A stretch of DNA of 64,000 nt from Exiguobacterium acetylicum DSM 20416 (lineage in GTDB: Bacteria > Bacillota > Bacilli > Exiguobacteriales > Exiguobacteriaceae): NCBI RefSeq assembly GCF_000702605.1, contig NZ_JNIR01000001.1:1602501-1666500 (forward strand). The letters are read 5' to 3'. The notes under the pieces were generated by a model. It did no database searches, had not been told where the DNA came from, and saw only the letters and a list, made by a program, of their open reading frames with translations. Position 1 is the stretch's first letter; every line of letters begins with the position of its first letter. Both the position numbers and the translations under genes were made by a program. Shown one piece after another: positions 39,378 to 63,299 of this stretch.

Positions 39378-39702
39378 GCTGTTCCCTCCTTTTCACCGTC
39401 TGCTTCCGTTTAGCACCTAAGCTTCACGTAATTTCTTCACAGAAATAACACAGACATGCCACGAAACGCCCTTTTCTCTATAAAAGATACCACATATTCA
39501 GGACCGTGACGTATGAAAATACTTTCGACATAATGAACAAAATGTGAAATCTATGTGATTTTCATCACAGTTCACCATATTTACCTAATACTAGAATAGC
39601 GTTGTTCTAAAAGATTGCAACCCTTTCAGTACTTTTTGTGCGATACTAGTCCTATGGAAATCCATGTATTTCGTATTTTTTTAGAAAGGTGGTGTCCAAA
39701 TC
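39378..39702. other. Divergent ctaB-ctaA control region
   Basis: 325 nt without a gene. It holds the palindrome at 39554-39569. On the plus strand there is a TGCGATACT extended -10 candidate at 39639-39647 and a TAGAAT at 39592-39597. On the minus strand a GTATCT candidate -10 for ctaB lies at 39485-39490. The ctaA ribosome-binding site AAAGGTGGTG ends about 10 nt before the TTG start. Confidence 0.6.
39554..39569. promoter_or_regulatory. Perfect Crp/Fnr-type palindrome TGTGA-N6-TCACA
   Basis: TGTGATTTTCATCACA is a fully symmetric pair of half-sites of the kind bound by Fnr, ArcR and Crp family regulators. It lies between divergent ctaB and ctaA. A further TGTGA half-site lies 11 nt to the left (39543-39547). 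Confidence 0.75.
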
Positions 39703-57508: not shown

Positions 57509-58921
57509 TTATTTAATGATGTGGATTGGGCTGCCGATTGCAACTTCAGCAGTTTCCATTGCGATTTCACCAAGTGATGGGTGCGCGTGGATTGTGAGTG
57601 CGATATCTTCAGCTGTCATACCAGACTCGATTGCGAGTCCCATTTCAGCGATCATATCAGAAGCGCCTGTACCAGCGATTTGCGCGCCGATCAAGAGACC
57701 ATCTGATTTACGAGTGATCATTTTCAAGAAGCCGTCTGGCTCGTTGAGTGCAAGTGCACGACCATTCGCAGCGTAAGGGAATTTAGACGCGATGTAGTCG
57801 AGTCCTTCTTCTTTTGCTTGTGCTTCCGTGTAACCGACTGTAGCGAGTTCTGGGTCTGTGAAGACGACCGCTGGAATCGCGCTGTAGTCGAGGTATGCAG
57901 GGTGTCCTGCAGCTGCTTCAGCAGCGATTTTAGCTTCGAATGAAGCTTTGTGTGCAAGTGGTGGTCCGGGAACGATATCACCGATTGCGTAGATGTTTTC
58001 GTTTGAAGTACGGCACTGATCGTCGATTTCGACAAGACCACGGTCGCTGACTTTAACTTCTGCCATTTCAAGACCAAGATCACCAGTGTTCGGACGGCGA
58101 CCAACAGTAACGAGGACGTAGTCCGCTTCAACTGTTTGTGCTTCACCGTTGACTTCGAATGTTACTTTAACGCCATCTTCCGACTCTTCCACACTTTGAG
58201 CAAGTGCTTCGTTGTGGATTGTGATGTTACCTTTTTGTTTGAGCTTTTTCTTAACGACTTGCGTCATAGCAGGCTCGAAACCAGAAAGGATGTCTTTTGT
58301 TCCTTCAAGAATGACGACTTCTGTATCGAAGTTCGCATACGCTGTACCAAGCTCCATCCCGATGTATCCGCCACCGATGACGATGAGTTTTTTCGGGATT
58401 TCAGGAAGGTTCAATGCGCCTGTTGAAGAAAGAACGCGTTTTGACCATTTGAAAGCTGGAAGTTCGATTGGAGTCGAACCTGTCGCGATGATACATTTCT
58501 TGAATTTGTAAGGAGTCGAAGAATCTTCGTTGATGATACGAACTGTATCTTCTGATTGGAAGTAAGCTTCCCCAACGACAGTCTCAACTTTGTTCCCTTT
58601 AAGAAGACCACTAACGCCGCCAGTCAATTTGTTGACGACAGATTGTTTCCAAGATTGAACTTTCGAGAAATCGACAGTTGCATTCTCAGAAGTGATCCCC
58701 ATATCGCTTGAACCTTTAGCATGCTGGAAGTTGTGTCCTGCAGTGATCAAGGCTTTTGACGGGATACATCCAACGTTTAAGCAGACACCGCCGACGTTTT
58801 CACGTTCAACGATTGTTACTTTCATACCGAGTTGCGCGCCGCGGATTGCAGCAACGTAACCACCAGGGCCAGCCCCGATTACGAGTAAATCTGTTTCTTG
58901 TGCGAATTCACCTACTACCAT
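57509..58921 (-). CDS. pdhD: Dihydrolipoyl dehydrogenase (E3)
   Basis: FAD enzyme that reoxidises dihydrolipoamide, making NADH. The 470-residue protein has the FAD fold [12 protein letters not shown], the redox disulphide in [15 protein letters not shown] (Cys about 47 and 52), the NAD fold [12 protein letters not shown], the second FAD segment [18 protein letters not shown] and the catalytic HAHPSLGE at the C-terminus. It is last gene of pdhABCD, 3 nt after pdhC. Confidence 0.97.
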
Positions 58922-58924
58922 TGC

Positions 58925-60217
58925 TTATCCCTCCATGATGAGAAGTTGTGGGTCGTTCAATAGACGTTTAACTAAGTTAAGCGCGTTTTGTGCAGTTGCA
59001 CCATCGATGAGACGGTGGTCGAAGCTGAATGAAAGTGCAAGAACTGGTGCAGCAACGATTTCGCCGTTTTTAACGACCGCTTTTTCAGCGATACGACCGA
59101 TACCGAGGATTGCAACTTCTGGGTGGTTGATGACTGGTGTGAACCACTGACCGCCAGCAGAACCGATGTTAGTGATCGTGATTGATCCACCTTTCATCTC
59201 GTCGCCAGAAAGTTTTCCTTCGCGTGCTTTACCAGCAAGGTCATTGATGTCGTCAGCGAGTGAGAAGATCGATTTACGATCTGCATCTTTAACGACTGGT
59301 ACGACAAGACCGTTGTCTGTATCTGCAGCGATACCGATGTTGAAGTAGTTTTTGTAGACGATTTCTTCGTTTACATCGTCGATTGATGCGTTGATTGCTG
59401 GGTATTTCTTAGCAGCAGCAGTCAATGCTTTTACGACGAACGGAAGGTAAGTCAATTTCGTACCTTGAGCAGCCGCAACTTCTTTGAAGTTTTTACGGAG
59501 TGCTACGAGGTTCGTAACATCAACTTCGTCCATGAGTGTTACGTGTGGAGCTGTATGTTTCGAGTTAACCATTGCTTTCGAAATCGCTTTACGGATTCCT
59601 TTGATTTTCTCGCGTGTTTCAAGTTCAGGTTGAGCAGCAACGTAAGGCTTAACTTCTGTTTTTGGTGCAGAAGCAGCTGCAGCTGGTGCTTTTTCTTCTG
59701 TTGCTGGTGCTTCAGAAGTTTGTCCACCGTTTGCGAATGCATCGATGTCTTCTTTAACAACACGACCGTTGTCGCCAGAACCTTGGACTTCACGGATGTC
59801 GACACCTTTTTCACGTGCATATTTACGGACAGATGGCATCGCGATGACGCGTTCTGATTTATGGATTTGAACCTCGTTTGGTTTGTCTTCCACTTTTTGA
59901 TCCGTATCTTGAACGTCTTTCGCGTTGTCTTCAGCTTTTGGTTGCTCTGCTTCTTCAGAAGGAGCAGAACCTTCGCCTTCGACTTCGAATGTGATGAGGA
60001 CGTCGCCAACGACAGCTACGACACCTTCGTCAACTTTTACTTCTTTAACAGTACCATCAACTGGTGATGGGATTTCAACGACTGCTTTATCGTTTTGTAC
60101 TTCAAGAAGAACGTCGTCTTCCTTGACAGTGTCGCCCGCTTTTACGAACCACTTTACGATTTCACCTTCATGAATACCCTCACCGATATCCGGCAATTTG
60201 AATTCAAATAAACCCAT
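58925..60217 (-). CDS. pdhC: Dihydrolipoamide acetyltransferase (E2)
   Basis: Core of the pyruvate dehydrogenase complex. The 430-residue protein has one lipoyl domain (about 1-78, lipoyl Lys in [11 protein letters not shown]), an Ala/Glu/Pro-rich linker, the E3-binding domain (about 128-165, [23 protein letters not shown]), a second Ala-rich linker and the acyltransferase with [12 protein letters not shown] hairpin lies in the 101-nt gap before it. AAGGAGGC precedes the ATG. Confidence 0.97.
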
Positions 60218-60318: not shown

Positions 60319-61296
60319 TTAGAAATTGTAGACAGTTTTGACTTTCTCAACGATATCTTTGTGGTCTGGGATCCAGACGTCTTCACCTTGTGCGAATGGG
60401 AAGATTGTATCTGGTGCAGCAACACGAAGGATCGGTGCTTCAAGGTCAAGGATTGCACGTTCTTGGATTTCAGTAGCAACCATTGCAGCAATACCCGCTT
60501 GTTTTTGTGCTTCTTGAACGACGACGACACGGTTTGTTTTCTTGACAGAAGCAAGAATCGTATCGATATCAATCGGGCTGATCGTCATCAAGTCGATGAT
60601 TTCGACGCTGATGTTTTCTTTTTCGAGCTCTTCAGCTGCTTTAAGTGAAGCGTGTACCATCGCACCGTAAGTGACGATTGTTACATCTGTACCTTCACGT
60701 TTTACATCAGCTTTTCCGAGTTCGATCGTGTAATCGCCCTCTGGCACTTCACCGCGGAATGAACGGTAGAGTTTCATGTGCTCGAGGAATACGACTGGGT
60801 CATTGTCGCGGATTGACGCGATCAAGAGACCTTTTGCATCGTATGGTGTTGAAGGAATGACAACTTTAAGTCCTGGTGACTGAGCCATGAGTCCTTCGAG
60901 GTTATCTGCGTGAAGTTCCGGTGTTTTAACACCGCCACCGAATGGTGAACGGATTGTTACAGGTGCACTGTACGTACCACCTGAACGGTAACGGAGACGC
61001 GCAAGTTGTGCTGCGACTGAATCAAATACTTCGAATACGAATCCGAAGAATTGGATTTCCATGATTGGACGGAATCCTGTCAGACTGAATCCGACAGCAA
61101 GACCACCAATACCTGATTCCGCAAGTGGTGTATCGAAGACGCGGTCTTCACCGAGCTCATCTTGAAGACCTTCTGTCGCACGGAATACCCCACCGTTTTT
61201 ACCGACGTCTTCACCGAACATGAGAACTTGTTCGTCGCGTTTCATCTCGACGCGCATTGCGTCAGTGATCGCTTGGATCATCGTCATTTGTGCCAT
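60319..61296 (-). CDS. pdhB: Pyruvate dehydrogenase E1 component, beta subunit
   Basis: Binds and orients thiamine diphosphate with the alpha subunit. The 325-residue transketolase-like protein has [21 protein letters not shown] (about 24-44), [14 protein letters not shown] and [13 protein letters not shown]-type strands, and ends [14 protein letters not shown]-like. It is coupled to pdhA upstream (3-nt gap). GGAGTCG precedes the ATG. Confidence 0.96.
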
Positions 61297-61299
61297 GGG

Positions 61300-62391
<1,092 letters not shown>

Positions 62392-62571
62392 TCATCCTTT
62401 CACTGCGTTCAGCGAAATATTCCTCTGACTGATTTGCTCACATGACAATAGTGTCCAAAAAACGAAGTCCCGTGTGACTATCCTTTGAACATGTGTCTGT
62501 GTACCTATTCAGTTGAGTAAACTGTATTATCATGAATCGACACGTAATAGTGTCTTGTTCATTACGTTACA

Positions 62572-62600
62572 AGTATAAATCTGTAACACCTTAAAATCAA
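62572..62600 (-). promoter_or_regulatory. Probable pdh operon promoter
   Basis: The minus strand has TTGATT, a 17-nt spacer and TATACT. An alternative weaker pair lies downstream (TTGTAA / TATTAC, also 17 nt). Confidence 0.6.
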
Positions 62601-62631
62601 AGGAAATGTTTTATTTTTTTCACGTTTCATA

Positions 62632-62649
62632 TTGTGAATTCAATCACAA
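62632..62649. promoter_or_regulatory. TTGTGA-N6-TCACAA palindrome upstream of pdhA and def
   Basis: TTGTGAATTCAATCACAA is symmetric over 18 nt, except nothing needs to be excluded in the arms. It fits a Crp/Fnr/ArcR half-site pair and is also one base away from the Rex consensus TTGTGAAN4TTCACAA. It is centred about 75 nt upstream of the predicted pdhA start point. Confidence 0.75.
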
Positions 62650-62724
62650 AACTAGAATATTCCATCTTCTGTATCATTCGATATTTTCCTACTGTGTTAG
62701 TTGTCATCATTCCCCACTTTCCTA

Positions 62725-62733
62725 TGCTATACT
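62725..62733 (+). promoter_or_regulatory. Extended -10 promoter of def
   Basis: TGCTATACT is a TGN-TATACT extended -10, 27 nt before the ATG at 62760. A TTGTCA lies upstream at a spacing of 21, too long to be a normal -35. Confidence 0.6.
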
Positions 62734-62759
62734 TTTTGTAGACGAAAGGAGTGTTGTTC

Positions 62760-63299
62760 ATGATCACCATGAATGAAATCGTACGCGAAGACGTTCCTGC
62801 TCTTCACGAACGGTCAGTAGAAGTGACCTTCCCTCTCAGCGATGAGGATAAGGAAACGATGCGACTCATGCGCGAGTTCCTCGCCAACAGTCAAGATGAT
62901 GAAATTGCGAAGAAATACGACTTACGAAGCGGTATTGGACTTGCAGCACCACAGATCGGTGTCAACAAGCGCATGTTCGCGATCCGCTTACCGGATGGTG
63001 ACGATTTATTGGAATTTGGTATCTATAATCCAAAAATCATCAGTCATTCCGTCGAGCAGACGTATTTAACTGGCGGTGAAGGATGTTTGTCCGTCGACCG
63101 TGAAGTCGAAGGACATGTACCGCGCTATATGCGTATTACCCTAACTGGCATCGATCATAACGGAAATCCTATAAAATTACGTTTAAAAGGGATGAAAGCA
63201 ATCGTCTGCCAACATGAATACGACCATCTAGATGGCGTCATGTTTTACGATCGGATTGATAAAAAAGAACCGTTCAAGGAATACGGTCCTGCTACGTAA
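62760..63299 (+). CDS. def: Peptide deformylase
   Basis: Removes the N-formyl group from nascent proteins. It has 179 residues with the three family motifs: [10 protein letters not shown] (about 58-67), EGCLSV (about 106-111) and the metal-binding HEYDHLDG (about 150-157). The insert and the length fit the type 2 enzyme of Gram-positive bacteria. The ATG at 62760 is 8 nt after AAAGGAG. It is divergent from pdhA and convergent with rnjA. Confidence 0.96.

Follow-up and report, generated by a model that had tools for sequence, protein, structure and literature searches.

A genus-wide palindrome upstream of pdhABCD in Exiguobacterium is a putative redox operator, most likely read by Rex

The palindrome upstream of the pyruvate dehydrogenase genes of Exiguobacterium is a real cis-element that is kept across the genus, and is, on balance, probably a genuine pdhABCD operator whose putative reader is most likely Rex. 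Such an operator would subject the main aerobic step from pyruvate to acetyl-CoA to a redox regulator throughout the genus, and would offer a simple test system. The palindrome is the 18-mer TTGTGAATTCAATCACAA, at positions 62632–62649 of the window (the whole 64-kb stretch of E. acetylicum DNA that was analysed; no strand is assigned to the site), and lies between the divergent genes def on the forward strand and pdhA on the reverse strand. It is the sole match to this sequence in the window with up to three mismatches allowed, and a sequence-only reading of the same DNA had given its letters and coordinates exactly.

The left half of the palindrome is the Rex-type TTGTGAA, the right half supplies TGTGAT, and both TGTGA cores are intact. 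The arms had been described as fully symmetric, which holds for the outer 6 bp, as these are perfect complements, but not for the seventh pair, an unpaired A/A, so that the TTGTGAA half is present once only. For comparison, Rex operators have the form TTGTGAAW4TTCACAA in S. aureus (PMC2883068), and the B. subtilis Rex consensus is WWTGTGAANTNNTNNNCAAW, as quoted in an excerpt of PMC3441419. The palindrome differs from TTGTGAAN4TTCACAA by exactly one mismatch, at position 12, and the remark that it stands one base from the Rex consensus is borne out; with the W4 spacer of the S. aureus form it agrees at 16 of 18 positions in the window and at 13–16 of 18 over the genus. Its inner half-sites had also been equated with those of the site between ctaA and ctaB (TGTGATTTTCATCACA, 39554–39569, no strand assigned, Fnr/CRP-type by motif); the two share the core TGTGA/TCACA, but the base that follows differs (TGTGAT..ATCACA at ctaA).

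The predicted σA promoter of pdhA (TTGATT-17-TATACT, 62572–62600, reverse strand, start near 62565) is kept in 19 genomes, with the −10 TATACT ending at 62572 and a spacer of 17 in nine genomes and 18 in ten; the scan that gave this prediction found two promoter-like sites where 1.8 were expected from shuffles. The centre of the palindrome lies 75.5 bp upstream of the predicted transcription start (75.5–78.5 over the genus), and the distance of about 75 nt proposed earlier for the pdhA start is right for this position, but not for the start codon at 62382, which is 250 nt from the palindrome. An A/T-rich stretch (62601–62631, reverse strand) separates the site from the −35 and may act as an UP element; its promoter-proximal part is strongly conserved, and its operator-side part is variable. 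The genes downstream, all on the reverse strand, are pdhA (pyruvate dehydrogenase E1 alpha, 61300–62382, TIGR03181 above cut-off), pdhB (E1 beta, 60319–61296, NF006667 above cut-off), pdhC (E2 dihydrolipoyl acyltransferase, 58925–60217, named from its best match NF008814, below that model's cut-off, and from its operon position), and pdhD (dihydrolipoyl dehydrogenase, 57509–58921, TIGR01350 above cut-off). On the other side, def (peptide deformylase, 62760–63299, forward strand, TIGR00079 above cut-off) has a predicted extended −10, TATGCTATACT, at 62723–62733 of the forward strand (TATGCTATAAT or TGTGCTATAAT in relatives), whose TATACT (62728–62733) begins 79 nt beyond the palindrome edge, in agreement with the earlier figure of about 80 nt. 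Gene names were taken from NCBIfam models; ctaB matches TIGR01473 above cut-off, ctaA is a weak model match, the names coxB, ctaA, and nox stand on matches under the curated cut-offs, and the scan of adhE and pflB used fragments of these genes.

An alignment of the def–pdhA intergenic region comprised 19 genomes of the genus, the window's own among them. All 11 arm columns of TTGTGA/TCACA are invariant in 19/19 genomes, and position 18 is A or T, whereas none of the six spacer columns and only one of the 29 neighbouring flank columns (12 before, 17 after) is invariant. The difference between arms and surroundings (11/11 versus 1/35) corresponds to a Fisher p of about 9e-10, which is indicative only, given the relatedness of the genomes and an alignment that takes the site as its anchor; nine of the 19 genomes are near-identical here (at least 97%), and the number of independent cases is accordingly smaller than 19. 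Every genome has both TGTGA/TCACA cores intact, W on both flanks, and exactly one TTGTGAA half. Position 12 is not T, the Rex optimum, in 17/19 genomes; it is T in the remaining two, G007 and G015, where position 7 is C, so that the TTGTGAA half has switched side and the other half reads TTGTGAC.

A chance palindrome without function would be expected now and then in a window of this size, since TGTGAN6TCACA with at most one mismatch occurs at four sites (two exact) where 3.55 are expected, an absence of excess on account of which conservation, and not the window scan, was used as evidence. That such invariant arms should stand by accident in 19/19 genomes within a fast-changing stretch is hardly credible, and the outcome that would have told against an operator, loss of the palindrome while the promoter is conserved, is not what is seen within the genus.

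Over the whole 3.28-Mb genome, exact TGTGAN6TCACA occurs ten times and the reversed control pattern not at all, and TGTGATN4ATCACA with at most one mismatch likewise gives ten sites, the pdh site among them, versus none for its reversed control. The Rex-type pattern WTGTKAAN4TTMACAW shows next to no enrichment genome-wide (17 versus 13 for the reversed control), and the loose form WTGTGAWN4WTCACAW with at most two mismatches gives 157 versus 95. With this much background, the genome-wide Rex-type patterns do not delimit a regulon, and the comparison was therefore made between orthologous sites. The upstream regions of 11 genes from 11 further genomes and the window's own yielded 17 operator families in 12 genomes; the DNA sequences recognised by Rex and by Fnr are almost alike, and these families allow the specificities of the two proteins to be compared.

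Eight families were classed as Rex-type (ldh-77, ldh-54, adhE-103, pflB-59, cydA, ywcJ/FNT, rex, and fnr), and five as Fnr/CRP-type (ctaA/ctaB, coxB, nox, adhE-244, and pflB-267), the latter labelled by motif only and the former by motif together with homology to known Rex targets. The Rex-type sites sit before homologues of the Rex-bound genes of S. aureus (ldh, adhE, pflB, nirC), and before cydA, rex, and fnr. They have W flanks in 96/96 cases, A as the seventh base of one or both halves in 96/96, and both cores intact in 0/96. This A7 half is WTGTGAA in seven of the families; in ldh-54 it lies on a TGTTA half in 11/12 genomes, with G after TGTGA in 11/12. A single A7 half is the rule in 5/8 Rex-type families. 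The Fnr-type sites, in contrast, have A7 in 0/60 cases (T, C, or G instead), W on both flanks in 16/60, and both cores intact in 37/60. In 12/12 genomes, the pdh site has W flanks and both cores together with a single A7 half, and the same mixed design is found in 12/12 genomes at the ndh-like/yumC site, while ldh-105 and adhE-162 are intermediate between the two types. The ndh-like/yumC site of the window's genome (TTGTGATTTTCTTCACAT, in L006 at 1975.6 kb) lies between an ndh-like pyridine nucleotide-disulphide oxidoreductase gene and a TrxR-like gene, and is identical in 9/12 genomes. Both adhE (L021) and pflB (L020) have a near Rex-type site and a far Fnr/CRP-type site (at about −244 and −267, respectively), recognisable in 12/12 genomes.

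Because the class labels are partly motif-based, matrix scoring of these families is partly circular, and ranks the possible readers without proving one. In leave-out scoring, 12/13 training families are assigned to the class from which they come, the exception being cydA (mean −1.0 bits), which we take to be a Rex target. The held-out pdh site scores as Rex over Fnr in 12/12 genomes, by a mean of 4.2 bits in the oriented comparison and 5.0 in the symmetrised one, and four other training sets favour Rex in 10, 12, 11, and 9 of the 12 genomes. Against the B. subtilis Rex consensus, the pdh site has a mean of 10.5/12, within the range of the Rex-type families (10.0–12.0) and above that of the Fnr-type (7.3–9.8); it is the only place in the 64-kb window with at least 13/14, and reaches 11–12/14 in ten more distant genomes. 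The CRP consensus TGTGATN4ATCACA points the other way, as the pdh site scores 10.6/12, where the Fnr-type families have 9.7–11.9 and the Rex-type 8.0–10.0. The S. aureus Rex consensus gave no separation of the two types here. The ambiguity between Rex and Fnr noted earlier is thus real, and the W flanks, the single TTGTGAA half, and the matrices lean towards Rex, while the CRP consensus leans towards Fnr. Against a Rex site speak the intact cores in 12/12 pdh sites versus 0/96 Rex-type sites, the grouping of pdh with the Fnr-type families by the CRP consensus, and the genome-wide enrichment of the CRP-type rather than the Rex-type pattern.

Each of the two regulators has one candidate in the window's genome. 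The single Rex gene encodes a protein whose best PDB match is 2vt2/2vt3 (named Rex; E 5.7e-95). Five proteins match the cNMP domain, of which one, encoded at 209 kb, is Fnr-type, with the C-terminal sequence CHCEGCPAGVC and the helix RETVNR; the C-terminal C-x-C-x2-C-x4-C motif and this helix occur in 30/30 Fnr sequences compared. The cysteine spacing is that of the residues which ligate the cluster in B. subtilis Fnr, and an RE-x-x-x-R helix is taken by us to read TGTGA. The other cNMP-domain proteins (L012, L013, L014, L016) have a TSYRHxNR helix in place of the RE helix and were set aside as likely readers. In 5/8 further genomes, there is only one cNMP protein besides Fnr, yet both site classes are present. 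A Rex-type operator, WTGTGAANNNNTGAACAA, lies before fnr itself (L036, 1501–1518, at 209 kb) in 19/19 genomes (18 exact, one with a single mismatch), while a search over 160 nt met no such operator in 11/11 sister-genus loci; a cascade from Rex to Fnr is possible in view of this site. As an observation on the assembly, a Crp-family gene occurs with its neighbours in three near-copies (L012, L013, L016; at 5.5, 3155, and 3161 kb of contig C1), one of them with an internal TGA and all close to contig ends, and these are possibly an artefact of assembly at the ends of a circular contig.

The pdh site resembles the operators of Crp/Fnr proteins such as B. subtilis Fnr and S. aureus ArcR (TGTGA-N6-TCACA) in its two intact cores, and an Fnr with a C-terminal Cys cluster is seen in 30/30 sequences compared; it differs from them by the A after TGTGA on one half in 19/19 genomes, by its W flanks, and by a position other than −41.5. 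Control by Fnr alone, in which [4Fe–4S] Fnr would bind when oxygen is absent and lower pdh transcription, or activate it from upstream, is rather unlikely. In its favour are the symmetric cores and the CRP score of 10.6/12, the place of pdh among the ten genome-wide CRP-type sites found against none in the control, and the 30/30 conservation of the Cys cluster and RETVNR helix in the one Fnr-type protein, and repression of pyruvate dehydrogenase (PDH) under anaerobic conditions makes physiological sense. Against it stand the A7 half, found in 19/19 pdh sites but 0/60 Fnr-type sites, the W flanks and the matrices, and, where activation is concerned, the position. B. subtilis Fnr activates from −41.5, and the predicted centre of −75.5 to −78.5 is neither at this position nor in class I phase, falling between the usual class I helical positions; its distance to the start also varies by 3 bp within the genus, which speaks against phased activation.

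The fit of anaerobic Fnr repression to PDH physiology, the best of any proposed here, leaves appreciable but minor weight with a hybrid operator, which Rex would recognise through the TTGTGAA half and W flanks and Fnr through the two intact TGTGA cores. Rex and Fnr would compete or alternate, so that pdh would answer NADH in air and the loss of oxygen through Fnr, which would repress PDH once pyruvate formate-lyase takes over. The joint occurrence of W flanks, a single A7 half, and both cores at the pdh and yumC/ndh-like sites in 12/12 genomes is consistent with such a design, as is the place of pdh within both class ranges (10.5/12 for B. subtilis Rex, 10.6/12 for CRP). In G007 and G015, where the TTGTGAA half changes side, one half is still TTGTGAA and the other TTGTGAC, and the Rex-type operator before fnr in 19/19 genomes connects the two regulators. 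Intact cores alone, on the other hand, do not demand Fnr, as a well-matched Rex site also contains TGTGAN6TCACA, and membership of the Fnr-type class is decided here by motif alone. For S. aureus, an excerpt of PMC2883068 describes upstream regions of certain genes that Rex and ArcR, a protein of Crp/Fnr type, both bind in vitro, although ArcR had no significant influence on how these shared genes are transcribed. The kind of palindrome found at pdh is ordinary, and a hybrid design would be new if shown, as a case of two sensors sharing one operator.

Rex remains the likeliest single reader. Like the Rex operators of Bacillales, the pdh site is an 18-bp inverted repeat with a TTGTGAA half and W flanks, redox and fermentation genes are among the other targets, and a Rex homologue is present. 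Unlike them, it lacks T at position 12 in 17/19 genomes, sits about 75 bp upstream of the predicted start rather than in the promoter, and has an NADH-producing enzyme as its target; a symmetric Rex operator, moreover, has both A7 and T12, whereas the pdh site has one TTGTGAA half only in 19/19 genomes. In the S. aureus operator, changes at positions 1, 4, 5, 6, and 7 lower binding, and at three genes whose transcription starts are mapped, the Rex sites are inside the promoter or a few bp away from it, as given in excerpts of PMC2883068. The pdh site does not show this repressor geometry, as it neither overlaps nor abuts the promoter elements and its edge lies 31 bp from the predicted −35, and direct occlusion is unlikely at a site so far from the −35 and −10. 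NAD+-rich Rex would instead occupy the region about 67–84 bp upstream of the start, beyond the A/T-rich stretch, and may tune the promoter from there through contact or interference with the C-terminal domains of the RNA polymerase alpha subunits, and a high NADH/NAD+ ratio would release it from the operator.

Rex is classically a repressor that is released by NADH, and PDH under such a repressor would rise with NADH, which is positive feedback. The sequence-only reading had proposed direct feedback on NADH by Rex; this has the wrong sign if Rex represses, as negative feedback needs Rex as an activator. A Rex-repressed PDH that rises with NADH is physiologically odd. Repression by Rex is nevertheless slightly favoured over activation at pdh, on the ground that pdh genes are over-expressed when rex is mutated in two streptococci: expression of pdh is up in a rex mutant of S. 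mutans, and that of pdhAB in one of S. agalactiae, as stated in excerpts of PMC3441419 and PMC8376106, respectively. These cases resemble the present one in linking pdh expression to Rex, but are known from expression statements in those excerpts, which place no operator at the corresponding position. If Rex represses, PDH would be tied to the ldh/adhE/pfl/cyd group and released as NADH builds up, an arrangement other than product feedback. A role of Rex as activator has been proposed in S. mutans for genes other than pdh (an excerpt of PMC3441419). On the other side, the S. aureus table of Rex sites does not contain pdh (PMC2883068), and a search by term of papers on Rex in B. cereus (PMC4162614) and Listeria (PMC8389512) met pdh in a reference title only. 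Among the papers listed for Exiguobacterium and Rex, no title concerned Rex in this genus.

The position of the palindrome between divergent genes also admits an operator that serves def or belongs to an unrelated regulator. Two more conserved blocks, CTTCTGTA and CTGTGT(T/C)AGT, lie between the operator and def at 62666–62701, and would suit such an arrangement. It is nonetheless improbable, as about 100 bp separate the centre of the palindrome from the predicted def start and the coherence of the regulon points to pdh. A further protein that reads TGTGA is unlikely, since the other cNMP-domain proteins have the TSYRHxNR helix and five genomes encode, apart from Fnr, a single protein of this kind. 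Part of the CTTCTGTA block has TACAGA as its complement, and this is kept in 11/11 sister-genus loci as well.

The palindrome is a lineage-specific element, gone beyond the genus boundary while the TATACT −10 stays: it is missing in 11/11 pdh loci (11 of 19 loci) of the sister genus, the family's other genus, and TATACT is still there. Fnr homologues occur in 38/38 genomes of both genera (58–100% identity) and the Rex gene (PF06971) in 37/38, one each in 19/19 of the own genus and with the single miss in a sister-genus genome, so gain or loss of a regulator does not explain the distribution of the palindrome. The sister-genus loci (L297–L307) have a cre-like site, ATGTAAGCG(T/G)TTTWW, which matches 9/10 letters of what we take to be the cre consensus and has its centre 61 bp upstream of the predicted pdh start in 11/11 loci. 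A cre-like match at that slot is found in 0/19 genomes of the own genus, one of which (G005) has a match 93 bp upstream. Set beside the sister genus, this promoter hints at a way in which one regulator can be exchanged for another. The fuller proposal that an operator selected for two sensors, through a Rex half and Fnr cores, arose in one genus, while the sister genus uses a cre-like (CcpA) site in a similar slot, and that the mixed design recurs at ndh-like/yumC and less cleanly at ldh, is tentative, and a shade less likely than the hybrid operator taken by itself.

The pdhA 5′ leader (about 183 nt, 62383–62565, reverse strand) contains long invariant blocks over the 19 genomes, for example CAGTTTACTCAACTG, then ATAGGTACACAG. 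The pieces TAATACAG and TTTTTGGACA are common to the sister genus, with TTTTTGAACA in place of the latter in part of the own genus. In a consensus RNA structure from 11 of the 19 leader sequences, double changes affect only 2/51 pairs, which is weak covariation, and a search of Rfam with 62300–62800 gave, with E values of at most 1, three matches that fall well short of the gathering scores.

Among named genomes, the exact core is present in 9/10 Exiguobacterium loci (all except E. aurantiacum) and in 0/70 loci from elsewhere within the best 80 of 403 pdhA loci, the ten named Exiguobacterium loci, which match at up to 100%, probably overlapping with the 19 genomes. Eight of the 70 other loci (L130, L161, L164, L170, L178, L182, L183, and L186) have at least 9/10 core letters within 500 nt, whereas 50 simple shuffles gave 0.88 on average and 4 at most. 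Rex-like control of pdh may have more than one origin.
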